Positions 2,292-57,796 of a DNA stretch of 64,000 bases are shown piece after piece (the first letter of the stretch is position 1; every line of letters starts with the position of its first letter). This stretch comes from Ehretia macrophylla (Eukaryota; Streptophyta; Magnoliopsida; Boraginales; Ehretiaceae): positions 12,203,001-12,267,000 of the forward strand of contig CM075778.1 in the NCBI GenBank assembly GCA_037974665.1. The letters are read 5' to 3'. The position numbers and the translations under genes are program-made. The notes below the pieces were generated by a model that saw only the letters and a program-made list of their open reading frames with translations, did no database searches and was not told the origin of the DNA.

Positions 2292-5200
2292 AAGTGGTAT
2301 CCAGAGCTAAGTAAAGATGATAGGGAATAGTATGTTTCCTTTTCAATTTCCTCGCCTCAGTAAGGACAATTATGATAATTGGTCTATTATTGTGAAGACT
2401 CTCCTTGGCTCACAAGAAGCTTGGGAGGTTGTAGAGAAAGGCTATGTAGAACCTATTGAAGATGAAGTTTTGAGTCAAAATTAAAAAGACGCATTGGTGA
2501 AAAATCGCAAGAAGGATCAACAAGCTCTTTCTATCATCCATCTATGTTTGGATGAAACTATGTTTGAGAAAATCTCATGCGCGACTACTGCCAAACAAGC
2601 ATGGGAAACTCTCCAAAAATCACAAAAATGAGTAGACAAGGTGAAAAAGGTTCATCTACAAACTTTAAGAGGTGAGTTTGAATCTCTCCACATGAATGAT
2701 GGTGAATCTATTTCAGATTATATTTCGAGAGTTTTGGTGGTTTCTAACCAACTAAAAAAGTATGGAAAAGATTTAAAAGATACTCGTATTGTAGAAAAAG
2801 TCCTTCGTTCTTTGCATCCAAAATATGAATATATTGTTGTAGCGATTGAGGAATCAATAGATTTAGATGACATGTCCGTTGATGAACTCATGGGCTCGTT
2901 ACAAGCTCATGAAGAAAGACACAAAAAGAAAATCCAAGAAGTCTTGGAAAAAGTTCTTCAAAGTAATCTCGCTTTGAAGAAAGAAGAAAACTTTGGCAAT
3001 GATGGAAGCCAAAAAGTACGTGGTCGTCGATATGGACGTGGTAGACGCCGACGCCAAAACCAAGGACGAGGACGAGGACGAAGATGTGGTGGAAGAGGAG
3101 GATTTAATCAAGAAGAGAAAAATCAAAATCCGCATAAACTTGGGCATGGAAGAGGCAATTATTCAGGACAAATGTATGACAAATTGCAAGTTCAATGTTA
3201 CAATTGTCAAAAATATGGTCATTATGCTAATGAATGTAGAAGTAATCCTAAAGTTGTGGATGAAAAAGCGAATTTTGTTGAAAGACAAGAAGGGGAAGAA
3301 GAGATTACCTTGTTGATGACTCATCATGGCGAACAAGATGGATGAGATACTTCATGGCATCTTGATACAGGTACAAGTAATCACATGACTGGACAAAGGA
3401 GTTTATTCGCAGAAATCGAAGAAACTGTCAAGGGCAATGTTAAATTTGGAGATGCCTCTATGGTCTCAGTAGAAGGAAAAGGTAAAATTTCAATCCGTTT
3501 GAAAGATGGAAGGCATCGTTTTATTTCTGAAGTTTATTATGTGCCAAAATTAAAAACTAATATTTTTAGTCTTGGTCAACTCCTTGGGAAAAATTACACA
3601 ATTTTATTGGAAGATAAACATTGTGTAATAAAAGATGAAAATAATTTTTTGATAACAAAAGTGCCTATGACAAGAAATAGATTGTTTTTATTAAATATTC
3701 AAAACGATGTTGCAAAATGTCTTAAAGCCTGTGTAAAAGAAGCTTCTTGGTTATGGCACTTGAGATTTGGGCACATAAATTTTGAAAATATTTCTTTAAT
3801 GTCAAGAAAAAATATGGTGCATGGATTGCCTTTCATCAATCATCCGGAACAAATTTGTGAGGGATGTCTTTTTTGAAAACAAGCTAGAAAAAGTTTTCCA
3901 AACGAGGCTACATCAAGAGCAACGAGACCACTAGAACTTGTCCATACTGATATTTGTGGGCCAACTAATCCTTGCTCCTACGATAAAAATAAATATTTTA
4001 TCCTTTTTATTGATGATTATAGCCGCAAGACTTGGGTTTATTTTTTAAAAGAAAAATCTGAAGCTTTTTACAAGTTCAAAAAATTTAAAGCTCTTGCTGA
4101 AAAAGAAAGTAGTTGGGAGATCAAAACCTTGAGATCTAATAGAGGTGGAGAATTCACATCAAGAGAATTCAACAATTTTTGTGAAGAGAATGGCATTCGA
4201 CACCCTTTGACAGCTCCTCAATCACCTCAACATAATGGAGTTGCTGAGAGAAAAATAGAGTTGTTCTTGAGATGGTTCGAAGCATGTTGAAGTCTAGAAG
4301 TATGCCTAAAGAATTTTGGGCTGAAGCAGTTGATTGTGCAGTCTATCTGTTGAATCGTTGTGTCACAAAGAGTCTCTCTGACAAGACACCATTAGAAGCA
4401 TGGAGTGGAAGAAATCCAACAATCAAGCACTTAAGGGTTTTCGGAAGCATTGCTTATGCTCATATTCCTGATCAAAATCGAATCAAGCTTGATGACAAAA
4501 GCCAAAAACTAGTTTTCATTGGGTATGAAAAGAGTTCCAAAGCATACAAGCTCTACAATCCTACTAATGGGAGAATTATTGTGAGTAGAGATGTCCAATT
4601 TGATGAAGAAGCTGAATGGGATTGGAATGTCAAAGAGCAAAAAGAATGCAAATTCTTACCCATACAAGAACAAGAAATAGAAGTCAATGAAGACTCTATA
4701 TCTCCAACTCCATCTCCAACTCCAACTCCAACTCAAACTCAAACTCCATCTTCATATCAAGCTCCAACTTCATCTCAAGGAAACATAACTTCAACAAGTT
4801 CAAGTTCGTATGAAAAGACCCCCCGTTTCAAAAGCTTGGATGAAATTTATGAGGTAACTCGAAATTTAAATGATGAATTAACTCTTTTTTGTCTGTTTTC
4901 TGATTGTGAACCAATAAGCTTTGAGGAATCTAATGAGAGTGAAAGATGGAGACAAGCCATGAATGAAGAAATCAAGGCTATAAAGAAGAATGATACTTAG
5001 GAGCTTGCAACTTTACCCACAGGGCACAAAGCTATTGGAGTAAAGTGGGTTTACAAGATGAAGAAGAATGCTAAAAGTGAAGTTGAAAGGTACAAGGCAA
5101 GATTGGTTGCAAAAGGCTATAGTCAACGAGCTGGCATTGACTATGATAAGGTATTTGCTCCTGTTGCACGCTTGGAAACTATAAGATTTATCATATCTCT

Positions 5201-6451
5201 AGTAGCCCAACACAGATGGAAGATTTATCAATTGGATGTTAAATCTGCATTCTTGAATGGTTTTCTTGATGAAGAGGTATATATTCAACAATCATTAGGC
5301 TATGTGGAGAAATGGTGTGAAAATAAAGTTTTAAAGTTGAAAAAAGCTTTTTATGGCCTAAAACAAGCTCCAAGAGCTTGGTATAGTAGAATTGATGAAT
5401 ACTTCCGTCATAATAATTTCTCCAAGTGTTCGCATGAGCATACGCTTTATACCAAACATGAGAATGGCGATATGTTGATTGTTTGCTTGTATGTGGATGA
5501 CTTAATTTTTACTGGCAACAATCCAAGTTTATTTGAAGATTTCAAGAGGACAATGGCAAGAGAATTTGAGATGACTGACATTGGACTCATGTCTTATTAT
5601 CTTAGAATTCAAGTGAATCAAACAGATGAAAGGATATTTATTTCTCAAGAAGGTTATGCAAAGGAAATTCTCAAGAAATTCAAGATGGAAAATTGTCAAC
5701 CTATTAACACCCTTGTTGAATGTGGAGTACAATTGTCAAAGGTTGATGAAGACGAGCATGTAAATCCAACACTTTTCAAGAGCTTGGTTGGAAGCTTGAG
5801 ATACTTGACCTACACAAGACCATATATTTTTTTTGGTGTAGGACTTGTGAGTCACTTTATGGAGGCCCCTACTAATACACATCTGAAGACTGCCAAAAGA
5901 ATACTTCGCTACATCAAAGGAACTGTTGATTATGGACTTTTATACTCCCACTCAGAGGATTTCAAACTTGTAGGGTATAGTGACAGCGATTGGGCTGGTG
6001 ATTTTGATGATTGAAAGAGTACTAGCAGATATCTTTTCTTCATGGGAGATACAACATTCACTTGGAGTTCCAAGAAGCAACCTATTGTCACACTTTCTAC
6101 ATGTGAAGCTGAATATGTAGCTGCTACTTCATGTGTTTGTCATGCTCTATCGTTAAGGAATTTGATGAAAGAACTTAAGATGCCTCAAGAAGAGCCAGTA
6201 GAGATCTATGTTGATAACAAGTCTGCAATTGCCTTAGCCAAGAATCCAGTCTTTCATGAAAGAAGCAAGCACATTGACACACGTTACCATTTCATCAGAG
6301 AATGCATCACAATGAAGGAAGTGAAGATAGAGTATGTCAAGTCTCAAGATCAAGTTGCAAACATTTTTACAAAGCCACTCAAGAGTGACGTGTTTATGAA
6401 GCTTAAAGCTTTGCTCGGAGTTACAAGAGTCAAATCAAGTTTAAGGGGGGA

Positions 6452-6726
6452 TGTTAGAAGATAAACTTGATTTGGATTAGGACTCTATTAAATAAGTTCT
6501 AGTTAGATTTAAAATATTTTTGACTAGATAGTTTTTTCTAGTGGGTAATGGTTTCCTAGAACCATATCCTAATTGACATAGGATTTTTGTTAATCTATAA
6601 ATAGGGGTCAGTCCTTTCAATGTAGTCATACCAAATACATACTAAATATTAGAGCAATAAAGATTTTGTTTAGAGTCTCCATATTATTTCTCTCTGTGAT
6701 AAAATAACCTCTTCCATATTCCAACA
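6452..6726 (+). repeat. Right LTR of the copia element
   Basis: It is 275 bp, directly preceded by a purine tract and followed by the GTATT duplication. Confidence 0.93.
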
Positions 6727-7461
6727 GTATTATCTTCAAATTGGCTTTTCCGAGCATTCTCTATCAGCAACCTTTCAGAACAGTCTTCAATTACTACTAC
6801 TAGACCATCCTATGATCTGTGTTGATTTATTCATGAATCATAGTTAGTGTTATAATTCCAGTAGGCAGTGCAAGCCATCTTTTTAATAGAGACTTCTTAT
6901 CCTCTATAGATGTCGCATGAGCCCCAATCTCTCTAATTCTGACCTTAAATGCTAGGCAAAGATGTCATAACTGGAACATCTTCAAAAACCCAAAAATGAT
7001 ATAAAAAACATTATGCATCTTCTATATTTGCTAGCACAAATGAAGAATAAGTGCTTCTGGCTCACCTCTAGCATTTCTTACTTCGTAACATCTTTGAACC
7101 AAATTGATATAGTATCATGGAGAGATAAGAAAGGAAAAAGATAAGGAAGGAAAAAAGTAGGGGAAATAGAATGAAAAAATGTCATTTTAGTCCCTGAGGT
7201 TCGGGGTAATTCCTAAATTGTCTCCCAGTTTTGGGAATTACCCAATTTAGTCCCTTTATTAAGTTGAGGGATGTTATTTTTAATGTTTGAAGGGAAATAA
7301 TGTATTTTCTTCTTATTATTATTATTTTCTAATCTCTCACTTTTCTCTATTTTCTACTATCCAAAAGTCACGCACACACACCCTATACTCACTTAACACA
7401 TATACTCATACACACAGACTTAGACATACACACAAATGGTTACCTATCCCTACACACAAAC

Positions 7462-10400
7462 TATAACACCCCGATCCCTTAGAAGACCGGAGCCCCAATC
7501 CAAAATCCAAGGTCACGAAAAACAAGAGAAAACGGACGGAGTCTCCCCAATTTATAGGACTATCCAGTTACCTGCACACAGAAGAATTGGCCACAATGAC
7601 AATAACCGACATTCATAACAAACCCCAACCTTCAATATCACATCTTCCTCCAATACTTAAGGCCATCTGAACCTTATAACTGAGACAAAATAGGGCATAC
7701 AAGCATGCATTGACAAAAGCTATTGAAATTCTGTATTTTAAAACCGCTTATCCTACAACTCTTATCTTTTCTACTTTATTTTCTTATATTTTAATTCGAT
7801 CAGCCAACCTTCACTAACTCCATACAACCAAGCAAGCTGGTTAGGCAACAAGTAAGCATTGAAGTTATTACAAACCACTACCACTAGGTGAACCTTTCTT
7901 AGTTATGTTTATTACAACTAATTAATATAAACATGGCACGCAGGCCTCAAAATAATACATATCATACACAAAATTTTACATAGAGGCAACAACCGAAGCT
8001 AAGTCATGCACTCAAAGAGATTCTTGATCTTTCTTCTCCTTAACCTCTGAAGGCTCCGAACCTGAAATGGTTAGAAATGAGGGGTAAGCATACAATACAT
8101 GTATACTCAGTGAGGGAGAGATACAGTCAACCAGGGTATTTTTGAAAAGCTTTTTATGCAATGCAGCAGATAACACAAGAATAACAGCTAAACAATAAAG
8201 ATCAATAAAGCAATTAGATACCACATATAACTAAAAGATGTGATTTCAATAACCCCAAACACTCCAAAGTCAATCTTCAATCACGAACCTCGTTCCACGA
8301 ACAACGAACTTAATTAATGTGCCACCATAATCCCATAACACTCCAGTGGATGTACTCCGGATGTACCCCGAATCCTATGACCTAACACCCCCTTGCGATC
8401 TCCAGACCAGGCGAGAGTGGGAATGGGGACTATAGTAGCCGAGGTATACCGACATGCCCGATGCCGCCCGGAGTTACCCGATACTACCATACCCAAATGG
8501 TTGCGCAACCACGATACGATAACATAACATTTCAATAATAAATATAAACACACAATTTGACAAATACATAAGCCGATAAGTACACAATAAGGATAACAAA
8601 AAAGGTTATCCTCGCACATAAGCAATTATAATTAATATAACTTTAAACACTATATAACCCAACAACATAGCTCAAACACACATTAATAATAGAATTTAGA
8701 TATTCACTAATATACTTCACAATTTAACACGTAGTTCAAGTAATCAACACAAGATTCATTACTGATAGTCCAATATTAGCATATTAGGAAAAAGATGCAT
8801 TTATCAACTAATAGAAAAGTTAACTATCACTATTTAATAACTAACATACTATATTAGCAAAATAACTATACTTCAAGCTAAGACTTTAACATACCACTAG
8901 TAGGATCAACTTAAGTTAATTACATTTAACATATAATAGACAACTATCAACCTACAATTAACTTTATATGTAGGTTCAAAGAGTATTAAACACATTCTTT
9001 ATATAGCTTACTTAACCCTTCTAAGTGTTCACTAGTTGTACATTGATTACAACAACTAATTCTAGCAATTGAATTGTTTAGCATATATAGAAATATTGTC
9101 TATCTCTAAAGGTGGTGACCATCACAACTCAGCTAGCATTTCTCATTCAATCTCAATTATATCACCATTTACATAACTATAAGAGCTCCATTACGCTACT
9201 AATAATCCAAGAACACTACACAATAAAGTCTTGATCGAATACATCCATTTAGAGTTGAAATATATAATCAGTTTAGCAAAATAACAACACAATTCAGATT
9301 CCCGAGTAATAGGACAGTTCCGACACATCTCACTAAAATGGTCATTACGTATTCTAGAAAACTCCAATTAACGCACCATAAAAAGTATTAAAAACTAGAC
9401 TCGTAAGTCTTTCTAACGGTATATAATTCAACCCCTAATCCTTCTCCAATTAGTACAGTTTTAAGCTTGAATTTGCCTCAGTTTTGCTGAAAAATCTGGA
9501 CAGCCACGGTTAAACACATACACATGTGTTCGCATGAATTTTGCTTAGTTCTCTTGCATTCCTAGCTAGCTTTAAACATTATTCAAGCATATATAACAAT
9601 ATTCTTGTGATTCAAAGCCAACCTACAACTAGCTCTTAAACCACCATTCAACTATGCAATCTCTAATTTCAATTCATACAACTTGAATGTGATTATAAAT
9701 TTAAACTAACAATAACTAGTTTACCATAATTCTAGTACAATATATACATAAATAATGCACAAAATATGTTAAACCCTCACCTTTCAAGGCTGATTTTGCA
9801 AGATTAGATAAGACTTCAACAACTAAACACATGCACAAGCTAAAATCATCTCATCCAAGCTAGCAAGGCCTAAAATTTTCCTTTTCTACTTCTCGGTTTC
9901 TTCCTCCTCACCACCCAATCTATTTTTTTTTTTTTTGAGTTTTCATTGCTAACTAAAAGATGACTAACCTATATTGACTTATCTCGGTTTTCCCGACAAT
10001 AGTGGAGAGTTGGTAAGTGGAGTGCTTTTTTTTTTCTTTATGTTGTTTGATTGCTATTATTTGATAACTCCTAAGATGTATTATAAAGCTAAACAAAAGC
10101 AATAATGTATAGCCAAGCTTAGATGAACACAATTGCTTATTCGGGTTTGGGCTCTTGTTCGGTTTAAGCTTGCTAATTAATTTAAATGCTAAATTAGAGT
10201 AATACTAGGTCCAAATTAAAATGAAACTAAGCCCGAAACAATCATCTCACTAGCTCCATCCTCCCGCCATGCGAACAGTGAAAGTGAAATAATTAAGTGT
10301 AAACAGAATAAGGACTAATAATAAATGTAATAAGATAACTATTTTAGGTAACTCGTTCAAATGTAAATTAAGTAAATGTACTTATCAAAAATAATAAAAT

Positions 10401-10919
10401 AGTACGTTCAGTTTCGGGCCAATTAAATAAATGTACTTATTAAAATAATAAACTAACTCGTTCAGGTCCGGGCCTGGGCTTCCCGTTTGAATAGTAAAAT
10501 AAATTAATTTAAAGGCACGTAAAATGTTTTTAAATAATTAGAATAATAAAGTAAGTGTCCCGGGAAAATCATTAATTATAAATTAAATAATCACAATTAA
10601 TAAAAATAATAAATTAATTACTTCACGTAAATCAATTAAATGTAATTTAAATAAATGCAAATGATGATAATAATAATTATTATTATTCTCCGGTCCGGGG
10701 CTTCTCATTCAAATAGTGAAATTAAATTATTTTAAATATTAGTAAAATAAGTTCTAATAAATAAAATAGTAAAATAATTATTTCAGGCAAGTCAATTAGA
10801 TATAATTTAAATGAATGCAAACAGTCATCATTGCACATTTTTCAAGAATTATGCAATTTATTAAAATAAATATATGCAAATTAAGAAAATGTATATATGT
10901 TAGGTCCGGGTGTCAGACA
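7462..10919 (-). mobile_element. Solo LTR of a large LTR family (probably Ty3/gypsy Del/Tekay-like), copy A
   Basis: On the minus strand it starts TGTCTGACACCCGG (ending at 10919) and ends in a GGGGTGTTATA-like stretch at 7462. It shares internal landmarks with three other copies in this window: a GC-richer block of about 200 bp with the phrase GGGGTACATCCGGAGTA (here near 8340-8480, reversed), the phrase around 8060-8110 (GTATACATGTATTG), and the terminal block with GGGGAGACTCCGTCCG (near 7530). About 3.46 kb, with no internal domain attached. No convincing 5-bp duplication is visible. It sits in the CA-rich tract of the inner Mutator-like element. The Del/Tekay assignment rests on the TGTAACACCCC..GGGGTGTTACA ends and large size only. 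Confidence 0.65.
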
Positions 10920-11402
10920 CACCATGACTTACACATATACACTCACTCACAACACACTCAATACACACACATATCTCATTGCACACACATGCACACATTG
11001 CGATATACACACTCCGATGCATACATCGTGACCCAAACACAACAATATTAGCTTATCTGTTAATTTTTTTAATTTATTTTTTGTTAATTTATTGATTTGT
11101 TTGTTTATTAATTTTTTCTACCATTACTAATTTGTTGTATTTTTTATTAATATTTTTTAATTAATTGTTATTATTAATTTTTTATATTTTGTATTATTAT
11201 TTATTTTTTGTATTTTGTGTTTGTAGGTTGCGGTGTGTGTACGTGTGAATGTTTATGCTTGAGTTTGCTTGTGATTGATTTTTGTGTGTTGTAGGGCGTG
11301 TGTGTGTGTGTGCTTGAGTCTACTTGTGATTGATTTTTGTGTGTGACGTAGTGTGTGTGTGTGTATGTGTGTGTCTATATGTGTGTGTGTGTGTATGCGT
11401 GT
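10920..11402. repeat. CA-rich and GT-rich simple-sequence tracts
   Basis: 10920-11045 is dense in CACA on the plus strand, and 11216-11402 is dense in GTGT with interspersed GTGATTGATTTTTGTGTG units. A related CA-rich tract lies at 7366-7461, on the other side of solo LTR A. These are part of the inner Mutator-like element. The two tracts are partly complementary and could pair. Confidence 0.7.
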
Positions 11403-11582
11403 TTGTGCTTGAATGACAAGAAAAACTTTTAGGCTTTATATGATGCTAGAGTCTGCTTGTGATTGATTTTTGCGGAAGGCATTATTGTAGGCTTAAAATT
11501 TTTTATTATTGGCATGTATGTAGACTTTAATTGCTATTATAGTTGACAAAATTGTTTATCAATTCTAATAATCTTATTCATG

Positions 11583-14500
11583 AAGGTAATTTGCTCTATC
11601 TATGGAAACTCCACTATATTTTTCTTAGGTGTCTTATGGACTCTTCCAAAACTAGGCTTGTAAGTTTTTATAAATTTATTACATATCAATTATAATTAAC
11701 TAAATTAAACTTGGACATTGCTTTGTTTGCTAAATTGAGATTCCATATATTATTGTTATAAAGTATGCCAACTTTGTTTTTTGGAAAATACCGTGAGTAT
11801 ATAACACCAACATTCACATTGGAGTGTAACGGTCTGTCACGGAGGGTGAGACTGAAAAACATAGATGATAGGTATTACTTAGTGACAGTTTGATCGAGTT
11901 TGCAAACGCTATTTTTTTTCAAATCCAAAGAGTTTCTATTCTTTTGGTTCAAAGACCCGGCAACATTTACAGTTAGAATTTTTGGTCATGATATTTGTGA
12001 AAGAGAGACTAATTGTAAGTGATTTAAATAGTATTTCTACATTTTGTATTGACCAATAATTTGTTTAATTAATAGTTATCATAATTATGATAATTTTTTT
12101 ATTGATGAATATATAATTAAGGCGATTCAGGTTGACAATAATGAGAGTGAAGAGGTGGAAGAAATTGAAGTGGATGACGAGGATTGTGAAGAGATAGGAG
12201 ATGAAGAAAGTGTTGAGCTAAGCACATAGGATTATTTGGAGGTACCATTGAAAAAAATGAAGACCTTACATTGTAATTTGTTTTTCTTGCCTATTCATTT
12301 TTTTTCCTCCTAACCAAATCACAAATAATAATTTCATGCCAATAGTCATATTCAAAATATGTTACAAGCACTCACAAAGGACTCTGTAGAAGGACTATAA
12401 TATCTTGCACTGGCTCTATGACAATGGTTGATTGTCATTGTGACACCCGAGAATTTGCATCATAGTCATAAATAACTGTAACATATCTTTTATGCATTTT
12501 AATATGTTTGATTTCTAGTTTAAATATGTTTACTTGATGGTCACTATTCATAAGAAAATTTACTGTCTAAATTGCTTGGTTTAATATTTTTCCTAGATAG
12601 TATAACTTATAAAAGAGATCGGGAACTTGTGGTTTTGAGCTTCGGAGGCCGGAAATACGCGTTAGAAAAATGATTCGTGCTTCGTTGAATAGTAAAATAC
12701 TAGAAATGTAACATAGTTATTTAGTAGTCTTTTAGTTTGAGTTTTTAACTTATTTTGACTAAAATATACTAACATTTGACTTAAAATACTTGCTCATACA
12801 TATGATATATACATACTACTACATATTTGCATACAACATACATACAAAACAAATTAGAAAATGCCCAATAACCCCCCATCCACCCCGCGCAAACCCGATG
12901 GCCTCTAGGAGAAGAAGAAAAAGATTTCAACTTCAAGCTTTGCAAATTTGGACTCTTGACTTGATCTTGATGAGTTTTTGGAGCTTCTAGGATATCTACA
13001 ACTAGCCTATACCTACAAATTGTGAGCGAGTTTGCATTTAAATACATGTTAAAGTTTTGTCAACTTTTTGAGATTTGATGATTTGTTGTTTATAACTATT
13101 GATATGCATATATATTGCGATATACATGTTTATTATGATCTATAGACCATGTTTGTGTAGTTTGACAGCAAGTTCCATGGTTGAAAGCTTGAATCACAAA
13201 AGAGATAATGAATAGTGATAAATTTTTAGGGTTTTGCTATAACTTGCTATTTAGAGTGAATTGATGCTTCATTTAGGTGCTCTAGACATTCATGAAATAA
13301 GTTAGAAGCTCCCGTGGAGTTGAATTGCCCGAATTTGAGTTAAAATATAAAATTAGCTAACTTTTAAAAGGGGGTTTTTCACGAAATGTAATCCGGGCAC
13401 ATTTGGGCTTTAGATTAGGTATCTTTGGGGCATGGAAGCACTTTTGGTGCTTTTTTTGCGTTAAATTGGGGTCCAGATATGGTAGGTATAGTTAAAATCC
13501 ACTCAGGTCCTTCCCGAGCTTTTGTCTCCAAAGCAGGTTTTCGGGGTCTTGGTAGGTGTCATTCGGATTTTTAAGGAATTTAGAATGATTGGATTGTAGT
13601 TTTGGAGCCTTGAATTTTATATAGAAGAAGAATAACATAGTTAAAGAAAGGGGAAAAGTAATAGATGGATATCTTTGTGCTTATAAGAGCTTGTAGATTT
13701 ATTGTGATGTGTTTATATGCTTGTCTAAGATATAATTATGCTAATTGAAGAGTTTGTGGAAAAATATGTTATTTGTCTCTTTCATGTTTATATCGTTACT
13801 TTGTGTATATTATGGTTAAATGCGAGGGCAGCCTACTTTGTCATCTCTCTTATGTGTTATTTGAAAATCTTGGCTCTCGTCAACTTGGTTCAGGGTTGCG
13901 CAACCTATTCGAGCATGGTAGCGTCAAGTAACACGGGCGGCGTCGGGCTTGCCGTGCTCCCTCAACTACTATGGTTTTCCAGTCCCTATCTCGCCGAGGC
14001 ACACTCCCCTACCCCAGAGACGTGGTTCATCTCGTTAGGGCATACAGACCTACCTCAGGAGATTATGGGTTGTAGGATCGGGGTACATCCGGAGTACCTC
14101 ATTCGGAGGAGTAAGGGGTTTGCCGGAACTTGCTTGAAGATCTTGTCTCGTGGCTCGTGATTGAAGACAAAAGTGGAACCATATCCTTTTTATACGTAGT
14201 TAAATACTTGTCTAATTAGTTTTGTTATTTTGTATTGTATTTGTTGTTTTCTTGTTGCATCTCATGAAAGCAATTCCCGGTATGCTACATCACCTCCCTC
14301 ACTCTCATGAAAACAATCCCCGATATGTTGCATCACCTCTCTCAGTGGGTAACTTTGGTTACTCATTCCTCGTTTTAACATGTTTCAGGTGCAATTAGAC
14401 CAACTATCTTGTGTATCGTGTTGTTGGTTGCTTATCTTGTTGAGGTTGGAAGCTATTTGTGAAGATGGGACTTGATGTGTTTTTGTTCTGTTTTGAAACC

Positions 14501-15170
14501 CTTGAAATCTTGTATGTATTTTGTATGGCTTGTTGGATTGTAAATTAAATTAAGGACTTATGTGGTTTGTTAGAGTAATTGGCATATAATAGCTAAAGAT
14601 AGATTTTATTGTCTTTTGATTGTGTGCTTTTGTGACAAGTAGGTGGACTTATCATAAGTAAAGCTTGGGAATGTAGTTAGAGTGGTATGATAAGCTATCT
14701 TGTAACCTAGAATTTCAAAGGTTGTGTCATTGCGTGCTCAAGTGATTATGTTGTTGTCTAACGCTTGGATAGCCTTGAGACTAGGAAAGTTGGATGGTTA
14801 GAGTTGGGGTGTTGTTATGTGGTTATACTTGCTGCATGCAGGTTTTTGATTAGTCCTATAAACAGGGGAGACTCCATCCATTTTTCCTAAATTTTGTGTC
14901 CGGGTTTGGAATTGGGTTGTGAATAGCATGATTAATAGTAATATTGGTTCCGTAAGGGATTGGGGCGTTACAATCATAATAATCAATACTATCTTCTCGT
15001 TTGTAGGCGAAAGGCTGGGAGTTACTTCACCTCCCATGATTGGCCTGCTCTACACGAAGGGCATAATATGGAAGAAGGAGATACATGTGTGTTTGAGCAG
15101 ATAAAAGGAGACCATTTTATTTTTCAAGTAATTAGGAGGGTAGGTGTCAGTCGAAGAATAAGATAAACCA
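11583..15170 (+). pseudogene. B3-domain (REM-like) transcription-factor gene remnant inside a MULE
   Basis: Four exon-like pieces read as plant B3 DNA-binding domain sequence. Piece 1 (about 11600-11659) gives FLRCLMDSSKTRL, before a GTAAG donor. Piece 2 (about 11764-12014) gives KYREYITPTFTLECNG, then RRVRLKNIDDRYYLVTV, and after a stop and a frame change, EFLFFWFKDPATFTVRIFG..CERE, the typical end of a B3 domain, before another GTAAG donor. Piece 3 (about 12122-12229) is an acidic linker (NNESEEVEEIEVDDEDCEE) ending at a stop. Piece 4 (about 15008-15163), beyond an inserted LTR at 12439-14972, gives HEGHNMEEGDTCVFEQI and FIFQVIRRV, the C-terminal half of a second B3 domain. The two-domain layout with an acidic linker fits the REM subfamily. 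It is broken by a stop, shifts and the LTR insertion, so it cannot encode a normal protein. The start codon is unclear, with ATG at 11600 out of frame with the domain. Confidence 0.75.
12439..14972 (+). mobile_element. Solo LTR of the same large LTR family, copy B
   Basis: It starts TGTGACACCCGA and ends GGGGCGTTACA. It is flanked by GTCAT (12434-12438) and ATCAT (14973-14977), a 5-bp duplication with one difference. Length is about 2.53 kb. It contains the family landmarks, including the GC-richer block with GGGGTACATCCGGAGTA (near 14080) and GGGGAGACTCCATCC (near 14866). It lies inside an intron-like part of the B3 gene remnant. No internal retroelement domains are present, so recombination between LTRs probably removed the rest. 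Confidence 0.75.
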
Positions 15171-15770
15171 TTTGTTTGTGTTAATGTGAAATGAAGTGAT
15201 AAATCATGAATTTTTATTTTTTTAGGTAAGTTTTTTTTATGTTGTTTAGGATGGATGAACAATTTTATGTTTGTAGTTTTTGTGATGGAGTGTGTAATAT
15301 TTGTCATCATGGTACTCGTTACTTGTCAAATAGTTATAATGATGTGCTTTGAGTGTTAACAATTCAATATAAATTATTCAGGGGCATAAGAGTCATTTTA
15401 ATCGGTCAAAGCTTTGACCGTTATGTTTAATCTAACGTCTATTAGATTGGGGGACCAATTTGGGTATTTTCTTAAACTAAGGGACCTATTTGGGACTTCA
15501 ACAAACTTCGGGACTAAAATGGCTTTTTTCTGAAATAGAATAAGAGAAGCAAAGTAGGGAAAAAAGAACATTAGAAAAAGGAGGAAAAAGTAGGGGAAAA
15601 AGAATAGAAGAAAATGAAAAGAAAAAGTCAAGGGCATACAAAGACATTTTCTGTAATTTTAACGAAAAAAATAAATAGACCCCTTAGTGACACTTTTCAA
15701 AATTCAGGGGATCTAAGTCATACTTGTTATTGATAGAGGGGGTCTGGATGAAAAATACCATTTCTTTTAA

Positions 15771-17628: not shown

Positions 17629-20600
17629 TGTAACGCCCGACTCCCAGTGCATACATTTATCATTCATATGTATATAAATTGTGCATTTACTTGTTTAAGC
17701 GCTTACTTGTCATAACATGCTATTAAATGCTTATTTGACATTTTATGTGAAATTTTATGTTTAATTGACTGCTAACAGTAAAATGGTGAATTAATCTATT
17801 TTAGAAAGTGATCAATATGCATTTAAATTATTTTCATAAAAGACTTTTAATAAAACTTGCATTCAAAGAGTTTTACATTAAATTGAACTCGGACTAAAAT
17901 TTTTATTATGTTATTTTTCGAATTTCATATTTTTCTATTATTACTTAACTTATATTTAGCTTACGTTCACAAAAATTATGTTCATTGTATATTTGTTGAG
18001 TGATGTACGAAAATATTTTGATACTATATGAATAGTAAAAACTATGTTATTTATTTGGACTAGAATTAGCTTGTCTTACATTTTACTAATTAAACCAAGT
18101 CCAAAATCCATTTAAACTCAAGCCCAAAACCCACAACTAAACCCATCTACTCATATATTATTATATACATATAATAGCCCAAAATGCTCAAAAATGCTCA
18201 AAATAAGTTAAAAATTGCCTAAAATAGCCAAAAAATCATATTACGGGAATAGTGCTTTTCTTGCAAATTTTACTTAATTTGATCTTCCAAGCTCTTCCAA
18301 AGGATTCCAAGTCATCAAAAAGCTTCTCCCTTGCTCCTACATCTCTAGTTCGGTGAGGGATTTTACAAAAATTGCATTTTATTTACTATTGTGGTTTATG
18401 TTCAAAATTGATATTGTTATATATGGTTGCTATTATTCATTTTGAAGCTTTATATCATGCCTCTAGGACTAGGAGAAAATACTTATATAGTTGTTTCATG
18501 TGTTTATGAAGTGTATGTATGAAATCATTTTTGTAAAGTCTTGAATTGGCACTATTCAAGCAAACCCATGAAATATTATTCCAGACCTTAATCTAATGCT
18601 AGATATGTGGTGTTGGGTTGCTAAAATGGCCACACGTTAAAATTTATCGAATTCCGAGAACATTGATTTTCATGGCCCTTTGTATGTGCACGTTAGAATT
18701 GATGCAAATAGAGCCTTTAGAACTAGTTTAATGCTTGGCTTAGGTGCCATAAATGTAGTAGAGAATAGTTAGATGCTTTGATTAACTAAACCTTGATGAA
18801 AACTAGTTTTGGCTTGTTGAGCTTAAAGGAAAAAAATGGAGTTATAGCCTTTGTTCTTAACTTTAGCTTGCTTATTGTGCTATACTTGTTGTAAGGATTG
18901 GAATACATGTTAGATGACTAAAATAAGGTGGACGTGGTGTGTGCGTGTGTTGAGAACTAAAGTGGCTATATGAGATTAGTAAAGTTAGTTTTGAAGTTCA
19001 TTATCTTGTGTGAATGATAGAACCTAATTTGTAAGCATTTAGAAAGAGATAAGTTGGATTTCTTGTGAATTGCTTGAACTTGTTGCACGACTAGCTAGTA
19101 ATTGACCTTTATGTGGCTGAGTAAGTGCTAAAAGAGGTCTAATTATATTGTTTATTCATTTGGTGAAGTTCCATGAATTGGCTTGAATGTTTACATTGTT
19201 GTAAATTGGGTGAATAAGCATGAAAATGATTCTTAGGCTATGTTTTACAGTTGAATTATGTTTAAGTGTATAAGTGTGGTCACCTTGATTGAATACTTGA
19301 TTTGATATTCTTTTATGACATAAAAGAAGTTGTATTAGTTAGGTAGTTTAACTTGCTAGATGTTAATGTAGTTAATATTCTTGGCAAGATTAAAGGAGTG
19401 TTTTAGAGTTATTTGTATGATTACTTGAACTATGTGATAATGTGGAATCAACAAGTGATTGTACAGCTTCTGTTGTTGTGTGTTGAGATTGCATAATAGT
19501 TAAGTTAGAATTACTATAATCAAATGTTAAAAGTGTTATATTTATATGAATAACTAGGGGTTGCTTATTTGAGCGAATTCAAAGAGGTTGGAGTAAACCT
19601 ATGCTATACTCTTACAGGTTTGGCAAAGGTGAGGAAGTTACATCCTTTTGTGTATTTTAATTTTTTTTACTGCTCATAGAATTGTATAGTTTGATATGAA
19701 TGCTTATAATTACGTGTACTTTTATATGAATTGAATAAATATACACTTGTCTCTTGTTTATATTGTTACATTGCTTATTTACTGTAACCTACGTGCGAGG
19801 GTAACCTACTTTGTTGTCCTTCGTATATGTGATATTATATTATTTTGCTATCTTGTGGAATCTTGTGAATTCTCGTTAATCGAGTTGCGCAACCTTTTCG
19901 GACATTGTAGTGTCGAGAAACTCTGGGTAGCATTGGGCTATCAGCTTAGCTCGGCTACCATGGTACCTATTCCCTTTCTCGTTGAGGCATACTCCTCTAT
20001 CTCAAAGGCATGGTTCACCTCGTTGGGGTATACGGACCTACCTCGGGAGAAATGGGTCGTAGGATCGGGGTACATCCGGAGTACCCCATTGGAGGAATTA
20101 AGGGATTTGCCGGCACCTGTTATCAAGGATCGATATTTGTGGTTCGAGATCGAAGACAAAGAAGATGAATCGTATCCTTTTAAATGTGTTTAATACTTTG
20201 CTTAATTAGATTGTTATATTGAATTACGTGATTACTTGTATTGTTGTTGCATTGCACGAAAATACGTTCAAAAATTGCCCTGGTTAACTGTTTTTATCCC
20301 TCACTGAGTATACATGTGTTGTATGCTTACCCCTCTTTCTAATCATCTCAGGTTCGGGCTCTTCAAAGATTAAGAAGAAGAAGTTCAATTTGGTCAAATG
20401 CATTGACTTGTTGCTTACCGAGATTGGATGGTTTGTGTAAAGAATGTGAAGTTGTCATGTAAATATTCAATTTTGAGACGTTTTGGTCTTGTTTGTATTT
20501 ATTTACTAGCTTGGAAAATTGTAATAGTTAATTTGTTGATGTATAGTTTAGATTGTAGCGGCATGTAATAACTTTAACTTTGCTTTATAGTCAATGTTGC

Positions 20601-31905: not shown

Positions 31906-34900
31906 GACTCCCACTTGCACGAAAAAGCACTAGGCTAAGTAACCTAACAACTTAACTCCCATTGACTCAACATGTACAAAAAAGACCCTCTCCGTTAAAG
32001 TTTTAGTGAAGGGATCTGCTAAGTTATTTGCGGAGGCAATTTTTCTCGACCACAATATCTCCTCTATGGATAAACTCACAGATTAAGTGATATTTTCTCT
32101 CAATATGTTTGTCTTTCCTATGGTTCATTGGCTCTTTACTTCGTGCTACCGCGTGACTATTATCACAATATATGACTAATGGGTTTCTCTATGGCAGGTA
32201 CTACTCCCAATTCTAACAGGAACTTCCTCAACCACACAACTTCTTTAGTTGTTTCTGACACCGCTACATACTTAACTTCCATGGTGGAATCTGCGATGCA
32301 AATTTGCTTCACACTTCTCTATGAAATTGCACATCCTAACAGGGCAAAAACGTATCCAAAAGTAGATCTCCTAGAATCCCTATCAGACTAGAAGTCTGAA
32401 TCTGTGTATGCCAACGGAGTAAGATCCTCAGCTCGATAGACCAATATATAATCATTCATTCTCCGAAGATACTTGAATATATGTTTGACCGTTACCCAGT
32501 GAACTTGTCCTGGGTTTGATTGATATCAGCTAACTATGCCAACGACAAAGAAAATATATGGTCTAGTACATAACATGGCGTACATAAGATTGCCAACTAC
32601 TGACGCATATGGAATCCGTCTCATACTTTCTTCCTCATCAGGATTTTTGGGACACTGATCTCGAGAAAATGGAACTTCATGCATGGAGGGCAATAAACCC
32701 TTCTTGGAGTTTATCATGTTAAACTTGACCAACATCTTCTCAAGGTATACAGCTTGGGATAACGCTAGTACCTTGTTCTTGCAATCTCGTAAGAGTTTGA
32801 CTCCTAGAACATAACTAGTTTCTCCCAAGTCCTTTATCCGAAATTGAGAAGAGAGCAAAATCTTTATGGATGTCAACTTCCCTACATCGTCCCTAATCAA
32901 TAGGATGTCATCCACATAAGGACAAGAAATACAATAGCTTGGCTATCATTTTTCTTGTATACATATGGTTCGTCAATGTTCTGCTCAAAACCAAAGGCTT
33001 TGACTGCTTCATTGAAACGAATATTTCATGCCCTAGATGTTTGCTTATGTCCATAGATGAACCTCTTAAGCTTACAGACCATGTTTTCTTGGCCTTTCAC
33101 AATGAATCCATCTGGCTATGTCATATAGATATTCTCATCAAGATTTTCGTTAAGAAAAGCTGTCTTGACGTCCATCTATCATATCTCGTAGTCGTAATGA
33201 CAAGCGATGGCCAAGAGAATCCTTATGGACTTCAACATGGCTACTGGTGAGAAAGTCTTCTTATAGTCGATACCCTCCTTCTGAGTGTATCCCTTTTGTA
33301 CCAACCTAGTTTTGAAGGTTTCCACTTTCCCATCCACTCCCCTCTTTCTCTTGTAGACCCACTTGCACTCTATAGGTTTTACCTCTTCAGGCACTACTAC
33401 AAGAGCCTAGACTTAGTTGGAATACATTGACTCCAACTCAGATTCCATTTCCTTATGCCAATGGTCTGTATCTACATCCGTTACTACTTCACCGTAACTA
33501 GTGGTATCGTCAACCTGATTGGAGATTGCTTTGAAAAACTCTCCATAGTATTTTTTTGGTTGTCTCGATGTTCTCCCACTACGACGAGGCTCCGGTGTAA
33601 TTAAGGGAATTTGCTGTTCATTTTCTATTTCGGTTATAGGCACAGGTAAAGTAGTAGAAGTCTTAGTAGTGACTTCTTCTAGCATAACTTCTGAATTCGA
33701 CTCTTGATGGATAACACTATCATCCTCCAAGTATCTAGCATGTGTACTTATTAGCACATTCTGCTCCTCAGGATGATAGAATATTCCACCTTTTGTTCCC
33801 TTAGGATATCCTATGAAATAACACATCTCAGCCCTTGGTTCTACCTTCGAAGCAAAGTTGTTCAGTACATAAGCTGGACACCCCCAAATGTGGATATGCC
33901 TTAAACTGGGCTTGCACCCTAGCCACAACTCATAAGGTGTCATAGGTACTGATTTAGAAGGCACTAGGTTCAAGATATATATTGTTACTTCTAAGGCATA
34001 ACCCCAAAACGATATGGGTAGAGTCGCGTGACTCATCATAGATCTTACCATATTTAGTAAAGTCCAATTTCGTCTTTTAAACACACCATTTGCTGAGGAA
34101 TGCCAGGTGTGGTTAACTAAGTCACAATTCCTTGTTGTGTGAGATAGTCTTTGAACTCACCCGAGAGGTATTCCCTACCTTGATTAGACCGAAATGCTTT
34201 AATGGGTTTTTCTAATTGTAGCTTCACTTCCACCTTAAACTCTTTGAACTTGCCAAAGGATTCAGACTTGCGTCGCATTAGGAAAACATATCTATATCTA
34301 GAATAATCATCGGTGAATGTGATCAAGTATTCAAAACCTTCTCGAGTCGGTGCGCTCATGGGACCACACACATCAGTGTGCACTAATTCTAACACTTCAC
34401 TTGCCCTATGCCTTTTAGAGGTAAACGACCTTTTGGTCATCTTCCCCTTTAGGCAGGATTCATAATGAGTCCATGGTTCAAGATCTAATGAGCCCAACGA
34501 CCCATCATTGACCAATCGTTGTATCTTGTTTAAGTTTTTATGTGTCATTGGTGGATGAAATCTTTCTTTTAAGGGAAGTAGAGCATTCAGTTTCTACATT
34601 ATGCATGTTGGAAATAGTTGGATAAAGATAGAATAAATTATCATGCTTTCTACCATAACAAATTATATTTCCATTTCTACTAGTCGTTAAATCAGAATAC
34701 AAAGTAATAGAATAATCTCTATTAATTAATTGCGAAACTAAAACAAGATTCTTTCGCATGTTTGGAACATAATAAACATTGTCTAATTCTAGCACTCTAT
34801 CATTAAAATGTAAATAAACTTTTCCAACTGTAGTGGCCCAGACCTATGCTCCGTTGCCAACCTTCAGAGTGAACTTTCCTTTACCTAGCATCCTCGTTTA

Positions 34901-36764
34901 CTGAAAGCCCTGCAATGAATTATAAATATGATTAGTGGATCCAGAATCTACTATCCAAGTATCAGTAGAATCAACCACCAAACAAGTTTCAACAAGAAAA
35001 GTAAAATGCGTACCTATCTTGCCTTTGGTAAGGTACTTGGGGCAATCGTCTTTCCAGTGACCTATTTGGCCACAAACGAAGCATTTCCCATTGGGCCTTT
35101 TACCTCCTTTCTTTATCATCATTGACCTTGATCGTAATCCTCGACCTTCTATCTTTTTGGCAACCCTTACGGCTTCCAACTCTTTAATCAACTGTTCAGT
35201 TGTCCAGTTCATCCCACTTGACTGGGACTACCACCTGAACTAATTAAAGGGTTTGGGCAAGGTCTCTAGAATCAAATCTATCTTTTCTAGAAGACTAATA
35301 CTAGCACCTAGGGATCTAGACAGGGAGATAATATCCATCATCTTTAACACATATGTCTCGACGGAATCACCCTCTCTCATCTTAGTAGTCTTCAGCTTAC
35401 TTAGAGTGGCCAAGGATGTTATCATGTCAGATAAAAACTCTATGTCCATGTGCTAAGACTGTAGAGTATCAGAGATAGAGGCAAGAATAATAGTACTGGC
35501 TAGCTTATCAGCCAGTCTCCACCTTTCCTCTAACTCTCTTCTATATTGGTCAGAAGTAGCCTCAATTTTAGGACATGGTTGAGTAAGGACATATGCGTAT
35601 CCACGATTTTCGAGTATTATGTCCAAGTTTTCTTTCCAGTCTTTATAGTTATATCCAATTAATTTTCCTTATGAATCGTATATAGACATGAGAATAGAAT
35701 ACTTGTATGTCATCTTTAATTTGAATATTCATGCAACATAATTAAACATGAGCAAATTATGTAAGACATATATGTATGACATGCATGAGAAAATAACATT
35801 AGGAACTCATGAATGCTAATACACAAATATAGGTAACCCTTTTAACTATGACTAATGTCCTAGTGATTACCTTATTACTAAATTTGGCTTCCTAAGACCC
35901 GATATCACTTACTCCGTAGGGAGGTTATTACCTATCTTGAGTCGAGTGTAAATATCATTCCTTATGGGATTTCCTTAGATAATTCAGACTCGAGCCTTCA
36001 TAGGGATGTTATTCTTATCAATACGTACAAGGTGATCTATAGCCTAGAACTCCATCATAGGGTGGTCGTTCCACTAACATCTTTTATGTGAATTCTCAAT
36101 TTTAGATTAAGCCGCTAAATCCAGGAATGATATCACCCTCCGTAAGGAGCAAATTGCATGGTAAGATGAGGTACAATCACCCATTAACATGATCTGGACA
36201 TGGAAAGTCGTGGGATTTCCTAGTTCATTCTCTCACTCAATTATTTGGACTAAGGGTTTCTACATATGTGATTTACTTCAATACTTAATTCTGGTTTTTC
36301 CCAAAAAATTAGTTTAAAACCTATAATCATTTTGTCTAAAACCTTAAAGCATAATATTTAAATCACATAAACCTAATCCAGGTTATTATCCTAACCTTAG
36401 GTAAGGCTTTCTATAAGTCTTTAGTCAAGTTTAGGTTTCTAAGGCAAAATAGTCATCTTAATATTTTCCTTAACCAATTTCAATCTATGATTTAATTAAT
36501 CTTTAGACTTTAATAAATCTATTCTAATATCCAGATTAATTATTTGACTTGACTATCAAGAACTTAATTTTTATACTTATAGGATTGCCTATAATTTAAT
36601 CCTACAAGGTAAACTTAATGCTAAACAATTTTACATAACAAAGTAAAGATAAATTAATTATGTAAAACCACATAATTTAGAAAAATTGATTTACTTAGCA
36701 TTTAATAAATAATTAATCTTAAATAACTCCCATAAAAAAAATATTTTACATTTTCTTAAAAACA

Positions 36765-55178: not shown

Positions 55179-56072
55179 CTATCTTTGAGCTCTAGCTCCT
55201 TCTTCCACATCAAAATCTCTTGGACTACAAGGATTGACCCTTCTATCCCTGCTCAAAAGCCTCTTGAATGACCTCAATCGCGTTGGCATTGGCGACTTTG
55301 ACTCTTCCTCCTCGTTGATCTCCCTTGGAATATCAATAACCAACATCCCCTCTGGCCTATTACCACCAGATGACGATGAGGACAACGAAGATGATGCTGA
55401 TGCAGCTGATGATGAAGAAGAACTGGGTGGCTGAGAATTAGGGAACTGATTAACTTCCTCCAAGTGACCCAATGAGCTGACCTGAGTCTCATTTCCCCAG
55501 AACAATACATTGGTAGGGAAATTTGGAGAATTCTCTTCAACTGGCACTCTAGGTATAGTCTCAATTGCTGATTCAGGGCTGCTGCTGGACGATTGACTAG
55601 AAACCGGGTTTCGACAAATAGGGCAAGTTGAATGAGACTGAAACCACATGTCAATGCAATCTACATGAAATCCATGATTGCATTTTGGCAAAAGCCTTGC
55701 CTTTTCACCCTCAGATACATCAGAAAGACACACTGCACATTCCAATCCATCTTTAAACTCTTCAGTACTAAACACAACAACAGGTATGCTTTTAAGTACC
55801 GATGGCTCAAGCCCTTTACGCAGGGTGGTCATAGCAGCTGGTCCTTGGTGGCCAGGGGCAAAGTCAAGACGACGCCGCCGCCGTGTAGAAGCTGTGTCAT
55901 TGGTGCCTTGTTGGCGGCGATTCAAGTACCATTTGGCATAAAGATGGAGTACAAACACAAAGACAACTACAAAGAAGAGTACTAGGATTGCAACCAACAT
56001 AATCTTGCCTGTTACCTCAACAACACCTGAGTCCCTCAGCTTGTTTCCCACCTCTGATGGTGCATCTCCCAT
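55179..56072 (-). CDS. ATL-family RING-H2 E3 ubiquitin ligase, 297 aa, intronless
   Basis: Single exon. An N-terminal transmembrane segment (about residues 24-46, IMLVAILVLFFVVVFVFVL) is followed by a basic stretch (RRRRR, 64-68) and the GLD-type motif of ATLs (KGLEPSVLKSIPVVVFS, about 86-102). The RING-H2 finger has ligands C112, C115, C131, H133, H136, C139, C150 and C153, with the tryptophan (DMW) typical for E2 contact. The C-terminal half is low-complexity, with a long Ser/Ala run (about 217-237), then LVIDIPRE and an Arg-rich end. ATL proteins sit in endomembranes or the plasma membrane, take ubiquitin from an E2 and act in defence and stress signalling; lack of introns is usual. The specific ATL cannot be named from sequence alone. 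Confidence 0.93.
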   Translation of the reverse strand: MGDAPSEVGNKLRDSGVVEVTGKIMLVAILVLFFVVVFVFVLHLYAKWYLNRRQQGTNDTASTRRRRRLDFAPGHQGPAAMTTLRKGLEPSVLKSIPVVVFSTEEFKDGLECAVCLSDVSEGEKARLLPKCNHGFHVDCIDMWFQSHSTCPICRNPVSSQSSSSSPESAIETIPRVPVEENSPNFPTNVLFWGNETQVSSLGHLEEVNQFPNSQPPSSSSSSAASASSSLSSSSSGGNRPEGMLVIDIPREINEEEESKSPMPTRLRSFKRLLSRDRRVNPCSPRDFDVEEGARAQR

Positions 56073-57796
56073 TTCTTAGATAACTATTTTTCAATTTTTT
56101 TAACTTTTTTTTTTGTTCCAAAAATGTAATTTTCACAAAAAGATTGAATCTTTGTCACTCAATTCTTGGATATATAAAAAATTCTATAAGATTTTAAGCA
56201 AAACCCAGGTGGGAATTTTTTGGGTGTAATCCAATCTTGAAATGGTTTAAGTTTTCAAACAAATATAGTAAAAATGGAAAAGGAAATAGGATAAAACAAA
56301 AAAGAAATGAGCAAATTTGAAAGATATGAAGCAAACCCTGAAAGATTTTCCCTTTGGATTTCTTGAAATCACTATGCTTGATAGCTGATGAAGAATCCAA
56401 AATTTGAGATTTTGAGCATCAAAATCTAGCACAGATTTCTTGCTTTTCTTCAAATATTCAGCAAATAAAAGAAAACAAGTTTTGCGGTTGATAGGAGAGG
56501 CACAACAAAATGAACCAAGAGGAAAAGAGAAAGTGGAAATGGAATTGGAAGTATCGAAATTGTTAGCTCATTGGAAAAAGGTTGGGTGGCTTATTAATAA
56601 AAAGGGTGTTTTTAGAGGACTTCAGAAAAGTCTGCTGATGGAAATGAAGGAGAAGGTGAGGCTTGGCTGCTCTAATTATGGGAAGTGAAGATGAGACTTA
56701 CGGGTGGTATTACACAACATTAGGAAGAAAGAATTGTCAATCAGAAAAAAAAAAAAAAAAAAAAGAATTCCCTTAGGAGACTCCCAAAAGGCTGCTTGGT
56801 AAAGAAATTGAAGGGGAGATAGATGACTTGGAATAGTTCAAAGTTCAAACTCCAATTGATGTTCTAAGAAGGTTTCCATCTTGACTGGTGTGTTATTGTT
56901 GTTGGTGGTGGCTTGGGAAGGTCGTGGAAGCTCTCAAATTTGTTGACTACTTTTTGGTATTCTTCTTTCTTTTTTTTTTTTTGTCAAAGATACTATCCAA
57001 TTTGAAAATCAAGAATGGGAAATGGTTGGAGTATTCAAATCCTCCTTATGGTTAACAGTTGTTTATTAAGTTACATGTCCTCCAACAACAATTCATTATC
57101 ACTTATGTCCATTTCAAGAGAAAAACAAACAAATCCCTCTTACTTGCCAAAGATCATGAGTACTATTTGGTTGTTTTTTTTTTCTTTCGTATTTTTTCTT
57201 TTGACTAAAAGCAAACGGGTTTCTATTACTACTCAAAAATATTTATATAAGTTAATTTATAATTACCAAAAGATATGATCATCAATATTCTAAGCCCGAC
57301 AGATGATCTGATTCAAAAGAGAATGTTTACTTTGTATTTTCTTTGGGTACAAGTAAGTGAGTCTATTTGTTTCTTCTTGAAGTGAAAATACGTTTTGACC
57401 CCCCAAAAAAAAAGTGAAAATACGTCATAATTAATTATTCTAAGAGTATCTGTAAGTGAAAAGAAGAATTCGGCAATCATAAGAAAAATGAAAATCTTAT
57501 ATTGAATTTTGATAATTACGAAATATGTTAAAAGTAATAAAGCTTTATGAAGATATTATTTTCAAATTAAAGAGTACCAAACAAACATGTTCAACATGGT
57601 AAATACGACTTTCTTTTGAGATTATTGAACAAAAACCAGTGATAGTAGTAACTTACAAAGTTTGAAAATTTTCATCGAATTCTATATTACTTTGCAAGAA
57701 GTTCTAACAATAATAGGGTTTCTATCTTTCTTTGCTAGAAAAACAAGAGAAAAGAAAAAGTTCTAACGACTATAGGTAATGATATGGGGTGATGAA
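56073..57796. other. Upstream region of the RING-H2 gene
   Basis: It contains the leader and promoter of the minus-strand ATL gene. A run of about 22 A lies at 56743-56764, and T-runs lie at 56969-56982 and 57175-57184. No other gene. I did not fix a TATA box. Confidence 0.45.

Follow-up and report, generated by a model that had tools for sequence, protein, structure and literature searches.

A decayed Mutator-like element of Ehretia macrophylla as a probable member of an old, amplified family carrying a two-domain B3 gene

Introduction

Mutator-like elements (MULEs) bearing host genes are generally portrayed as scattered gene fragments. A MULE at positions 7173-15531 of a 64,000-nucleotide stretch of the Ehretia macrophylla genome (the window; C15:12203001-12267000 of a 1.58-Gb genome in 20 contigs) contains the remains of a two-domain B3 gene of the REM type, and the question raised by this locus is whether the gene is an isolated capture or the shared cargo of a family of elements. 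A preliminary description of the window had proposed an element of the Pack-MULE kind with a captured gene. Comparisons, all made within that genome, indicate that the window element is probably a dead copy of an old, amplified, non-autonomous MULE family with the two-domain REM-type B3 gene as its normal cargo. Since many relatives are found genome-wide, some with a readable gene, the element is a member of a gene-spreading family and not a one-off scrap.

Results

Structure of the window element

The element is flanked by an exact 10-bp target-site duplication, GAAATAGAAT, which adjoins the element ends GAAAAAATGTCATTTTAGTCCC and AGAAAAAAGCCATTTTAGTCCC. The ends form terminal inverted repeats (TIRs) of ~80 bp, the aligned arms of which scored 54, whereas 200 mononucleotide shuffles reached at most 32. 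The end motif TTTTAGTCCCTGAGGTT, searched with at most three mismatches, was present at two sites in the window, both of them the element ends, where 0.24 were expected; 2 of 100 shuffles equalled this result. The MULE boundaries and duplication recognized in the preliminary description are thereby upheld.

Between the ends lies a four-exon REM-type gene encoding two B3 domains joined by an acidic linker, as first proposed, with the exons in order and the introns positioned as in two related loci, L071 and L140. The pieces originally placed at 11600-12229 and 15008-15163 do represent four exons, the bounds of which are corrected in Table 1. All three proposed donors are present, whereas the acceptor AG of exon 2 is not intact. 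The window copy is a pseudogene, disrupted by frame shifts, an internal TGA and an LTR-like (long terminal repeat-like) insert. A family protein query recovered the exon of the first B3 domain (B3-1) with an E value of 1.1e-23 and 58% identity across the one internal TGA. The Pfam B3 profile (PF02362) matched 14981-15163, in the second domain (B3-2), with an E value of 2.3e-5 and 24.7 bits, under the curated cut-off of 30.1, and the remaining three of the four gene pieces gave no Pfam match when scanned singly. The spliced gene of L071 cleared the cut-off (E 7.1e-21, 74.5 bits, two matched stretches). B3 was the sole Pfam family above cut-off in the coding pieces scanned from the window and L071.

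Two nested LTR-like inserts, overlooked previously, account for ~70% of the element span (Table 1). They are related to each other and lie in opposite orientation, the two outer arms being 75-77% complementary. The flanks joined across insert 1 align to L013, L016, L041 and L042. Insert 2 starts with TGTGACACC, ends with GTTACA, is flanked by GTCAT and ATCAT and, by inference, resembles a solo LTR. It splits exon 4 at a site that is uninterrupted in all five aligned copies (joined flanks: L015, L012, L017, L021 and L022), and DNA queries with 11410-12432 and 14973-15529 found matches that adjoin elsewhere, for example C7:92626474-92627323 followed by 92627326-92627871. Frames of ~150 aa at 13729-14160 and 19735-20193 (+ strand) look alike by eye and have no Pfam match; since the former sits inside insert 2, the latter may mark another copy of the LTR-like repeat.

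The CA/GT-rich tracts of the element align to the 5' leader of L013, L016, L041 and L042. Since they are common to the leader of other copies, they belong to the element itself and are no special capture by the window copy; the proposal that they are promoter or intron DNA taken along with the gene was rejected. Just outside the element, 15580-15770 contains GACCCC/GGGGTC-type segments, noted by eye, and resembles the terminus of a different terminal-repeat element, into which the MULE may have landed.

A dispersed family with the same gene and ends

A DNA search with the window gene region gave at least 46 matches in the genome (best 40 of 179 candidates scored), and protein searches gave at least 150 each for B3-1 (best 150 of 210) and B3-2 (best 150 of 260). 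Since only the best-ranked candidates were scored, the family counts are lower bounds or samples. For 79 of the 136 B3-1 matches listed, on 19 of the 20 contigs, a same-strand B3-2 match followed 300-1500 bp downstream (median of the pairs, 594). Ten further pairs, the window included, were 1.5-8 kb apart, one of which, with a distance of 7.8 kb, may represent two copies. A B3-1 partner was missing for 60 of the 149 B3-2 matches listed. Related B3-bearing copies also stand at short intervals at C15 8.53-9.04 Mb and C17 33.43-33.67 Mb, series that are probably local duplications including the element. A search of a plasmid collection gave no match.

Family ends begin with GGGAAAAA or GGGTTAAAA followed by TTTTAGTCCCTGAGGTT. 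The TIR head TTTTAGTCCCTGAGGTTT has 329 and 333 exact genome sites on the two strands (662) versus 0 and 0 for the reversed control. Besides the window copy, ten others have family ends and target duplications of 9-11 bp with at most one mismatch: three complete elements of 2.1-2.3 kb, three other gene-bearing copies, three single-domain elements of 860-890 bp and one B3-less element of 690 bp. The duplications are exact in L026 (9 bp), L031 and L072 (11 bp), and L071, L135, L136, L137 and L138 (10 bp), and match at 9 of 10 bases in L070 and L033. Copies of different subfamilies have related introns, 3' regions and end sequences.

A uniform scan of 41 loci with stricter ends found end pairs at 13, with 10 of 10 bases matching at five loci, 9 at one, 8 at two and 5 or fewer at five. 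None of 156 swapped-end control pairs had 9 or 10 matching bases and four had 8. Chance ends were rejected, since 6 of the 13 real pairs match at 9-10 of 10 bases against 0 of 156 controls.

Complete elements and shorter derivatives

The three complete elements L070, L071 and L072 lie between duplications matching at 9/10, 10/10 and 11/11 bases, respectively. In each the longest stop-to-stop frame is the B3-1 exon, and none of the three has a stop-to-stop frame above 150 aa. The gene is mostly open in all three: exons 2 and 3 of L070 are open, as is exon 4 until near its end; all four exons of L071 are open, with a third donor that looks altered; and exon 4 of L072 is frame-shifted. At a further locus, L073, the exons are open, the fourth until close to its end, and the left element end is present; its right end was not found in the end comparison or the uniform scan. 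In L071, MVHLLKFFK...NTRL and SLSIKF...DINC form the first B3 domain, followed by the acidic linker and by PLAKNF...FRVL, the second. The linker exons as delimited measure 165 (L071), 162 (L072), 129 (L070) and 120 nt (L073), lengths that show only a lack of frame breaks because delimiting by whole codons forces multiples of three.

L135, L136 and L137, the three 860-890-bp elements, were read among the 60 B3-2 matches without a B3-1 partner; they have TIRs and an open B3-2 frame and are mutually 85-91% identical in pairwise local alignments. L138, chosen for two end motifs 646 bp apart, resembles the miniature inverted-repeat transposable elements (MITEs) derived from MULEs in its ~690 bp, TIRs, 10-bp duplication and lack of a B3 frame; unlike them, it retains sequence resembling, by eye, the 3' flank of the short B3-bearing elements.

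Relationships of the B3 domains

A tree of 45 rows, among them 20 family B3-1 domains and 21 other B3 domains of the genome, was built from few columns and has long branches. The 20 family rows, of which L124 was counted on its exon alone, form one side of a single branch (support 100/99) far from the 21 others, and the four B3-2 rows are likewise grouped. B3-1 is nearest to host REM-type first domains; B3-2 is nearest to two domains of a C10 cluster (97/78, under the star threshold). Four host-like B3-1 matches at the end of the list are 34-39% identical to family B3-1, the middle of which looks shortened by eye. A five-exon B3-1 profile matched PDB 1yel (At1g16640) with an E value of 1.4e-8, whereas the single L071 sequence gave weak PDB matches, the best to VRN1 (E 0.29). 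REM genes such as At1g16640 resemble the family gene in having a pair of B3 domains with an acidic linker; unlike them, the family gene sits between MULE ends. The family exon tree is star-like, with many long ends and short inner branches, a shape that would fit bursts followed by decay.

Selection on the B3 frame

The net ratio of nonsynonymous to synonymous substitution (dN/dS) at kappa 1 was 0.40 (0.22-0.69) in the real frame versus 0.79 and 1.32 in two wrong frames, and the real frame fell below both wrong frames in all six within- and between-subfamily comparisons, also at kappa 1. Between L071 and L073, the B3 exons form a gapless alignment of 462 nt at a Kimura two-parameter distance of 0.39, with a simulated stop-free probability of 0.018 under free substitution. 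Among the closest pairs, dN/dS is close to 1 in many and around 0.4-0.6 in others. Of the 29 loci of the DNA-similarity set (L010-L038), 8 have a B3-1 exon that is full-length and free of stops, by a rough estimate about what free decay would leave. Many exons were chosen by protein similarity, which biases the sample toward conserved copies, and the open copies were selected. The evidence for selection on the frame is suggestive: it points to a likely past coding constraint, in the elements or in host genes feeding them, and to present copies that mostly decay.

TIR-less genes and alternative explanations

The search for a parent gene with matching introns found L140 (C19:1762027), which has four open exons, introns at the family positions and an acidic linker. 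The 3.2 kb examined there contained no family end, and neither flank had a TIR head within ~1 kb. L140 is homologous to L070, L071 and L073 across the gene region only, with 75% identity to L073 over 1100 bp; its exon relatives are L130 and L124. L140 may be either the parent or an exapted element copy. The genome yielded no recent parent of high similarity. L139 has an open B3-2; the 2.9 kb upstream of it contain no B3-1, and clear family ends or TIRs are absent. It is one of four places at C14 15.69-16.00 Mb where a B3-2 frame of 114 aa is open and shares 43-46% identity with L071.

Several results weigh against a single amplified family with constrained cargo. No end pair was obtained at 28 of the 41 loci in the strict scan, and 5 of the 13 pairs match at 5 or fewer of 10 bases; three of these five (the window copy, L026 and L072) show good duplications under other end choices, the exceptions being L032 and L041. 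At kappa 3.7 the net dN/dS of the real frame rises to 0.72, with an interval (0.45-1.16) that includes 1, and fixed differences (21 nonsynonymous to 8 synonymous) do not differ from singletons (154 to 45; p 0.64). Matches to the transposase domain PF10551 are plentiful (best 150 of 1321 candidates scored). A comparison by eye placed none of the 100 TIR heads listed (of 662; C1-C3) within 10 kb of those best 150, and no autonomous partner was found. Finally, an approximately unbiased test of the other 31 family rows as one clade gave p 0.38, so that a position of the TIR-less genes outside them is not rejected. Since L140 falls in or beside the family, repeated uptake from an L140-like gene is possible.

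That alternative, in which related host REM genes were acquired several times by MULEs whose TIRs are alike, is the strongest of the rivals, though unlikely. Coding frames would then have been kept by the host genes and not by the elements, because those genes were captured more than once. The tree test, the fully open L140 with its family introns and the open B3-2 of L139 all favour it; opposed to it are the related introns, 3' regions and ends of copies from different subfamilies and, in the free tree, the nesting of the L140 exon group inside the family.

Highly improbable is an ordinary one-off Pack-MULE with exons of a single host REM gene and no wider family. Pack-MULEs of rice and other plants do resemble the window family in MULE ends, duplications of 9-11 bp, an intron-bearing host-like gene and no transposase-sized frame, features found here in the window element or its complete relatives. 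Unlike them, the window family is large and diverged, the same gene recurs in it, and it includes subfamilies, shorter derivatives and some mostly open copies. The initial Pack-MULE reading holds for the presence of a host-like gene in a MULE, but an isolated, fresh capture is contradicted by the ten further copies with duplications and by the recurrence of this gene and its ends, each time with a separate duplication, in dispersed copies. Scarcely credible is a plain host REM family with chance ends or flanking repeats, for although B3 genes are numerous and partly clustered (C10, C12, C13), it is rejected because, in dispersed copies, the homologous ends that enclose the gene directly adjoin target duplications, a match of 9 of 10 being reached by no control pair.

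Features of the window

Coordinates of the element are collected in Table 1. Elsewhere in the window, pieces of a Copia-type LTR retrotransposon lie at 2632-6464 (+ strand), with separate open frames for gag (PF14223), zinc knuckle, integrase core and RVT_2, and a second Copia-like element, broken into several frames, lies at 32526-35227 (- strand), with an SH3-like domain match in 33413-34156. A 298-aa open frame at 55179-56075 (- strand) has a RING-H2 finger (zf-RING_2, E 2.3e-14) and is presumably an ordinary ATL-type E3 ligase gene.

Table 1. Parts of the MULE and its flanks, in window coordinates.
Feature	Position	Strand	Remarks
Left target-site duplication GAAATAGAAT	7163-7172	.	10/10 identical to 15532-15541
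5' TIR	7173-7254	+	Local alignment of both ends
5' subterminal region and CA-rich leader, first part	7255-7465	+	Aligned in L013, L016, L041, L042
Nested LTR-like insert 1	7466-~10916	-	Boundaries approximate; no clear duplication
Leader continued: CA-rich, AT-rich, GT-rich tracts	10917-11601	+	Includes ~55-bp tandem repeat 11242-11364
Exon 1 (start of B3 domain 1)	11602-11659	+	Frame shifted; donor GTAAGT; matches exon 1 of L071, L072, L073, L140
Exon 2 (remainder of B3 domain 1)	11762-12014	+	Frame shift; TGA at 11891-11893; donor GTAAGT
Exon 3 (acidic linker)	12122-12272	+	In-frame TAG near end; donor GTAATT; compare linker exons of L070-L073
Exon 4, first part (start of B3 domain 2)	12369-12438	+	Aligned to L015, L012, L017, L021, L022
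Nested LTR-like insert 2	12439-14972	+	TG...CA ends; 5-bp duplication GTCAT/ATCAT (4/5)
Exon 4, second part (end of B3 domain 2, stop TAA)	14978-15166	+	Pfam B3 match below cut-off
3' untranslated and subterminal region	15167-15450	+	DNA comparison with other copies
3' TIR	15451-15531	-	Local alignment of both ends
Right target-site duplication GAAATAGAAT	15532-15541	.	10/10 identical to 7163-7172

Discussion

The history that would best account for the amplified family begins with uptake of a two-domain B3 gene with its introns, presumably once and long ago. A MULE transposase supplied by another element would act on the shared ends, and gene-bearing copies would spread in bursts, each copy then decaying. 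Source copies may have kept the protein intact for some period, while other elements would shrink to single-domain and then to B3-less, MITE-like forms. LTR elements would hit gene-bearing copies, as in the window.

No description of B3-bearing MULEs or Pack-MULEs was found in searches of an open-access library. According to two reports (PMC13317346, PMC2528002), KI-MULE and VANDAL elements are non-TIR MULEs with further genes, ULP1 or VANC, and VANC proteins serve the VANDAL elements. The window family is, like them, a lineage of MULEs that has spread together with an additional gene, host-derived or DNA-recognising, and differs from them in its TIRs, its B3 cargo and the lack of a transposase-sized frame in three complete copies. 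Membership in that group was rejected, given the TIRs and B3 as the sole family above cut-off in the pieces scanned.

By analogy with VANC, the B3 protein might be a working regulator of the element itself, binding its own ends or leader to aid expression or movement, an idea we regard as quite doubtful. Considered as a possible VANC-like target repeat, the motif CTTGTGATTGATTTTTG of the ~55-bp repeat (at most two mismatches) is present three times in the window element and two to four times in L013, L014 and L016, and is absent from every other independent locus searched; being so confined, it is no family-wide signal. If the idea were true, a plant transcription-factor domain would have been turned into a transposon's own regulator.

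The family provides, in one genome, a series for gene capture, spread, decay and perhaps exaptation, comprising largely open copies, single-domain derivatives, MITE-like remnants and possibly a stationary gene. Such a family would help to account for the inflated numbers of B3/REM genes annotated in plants.

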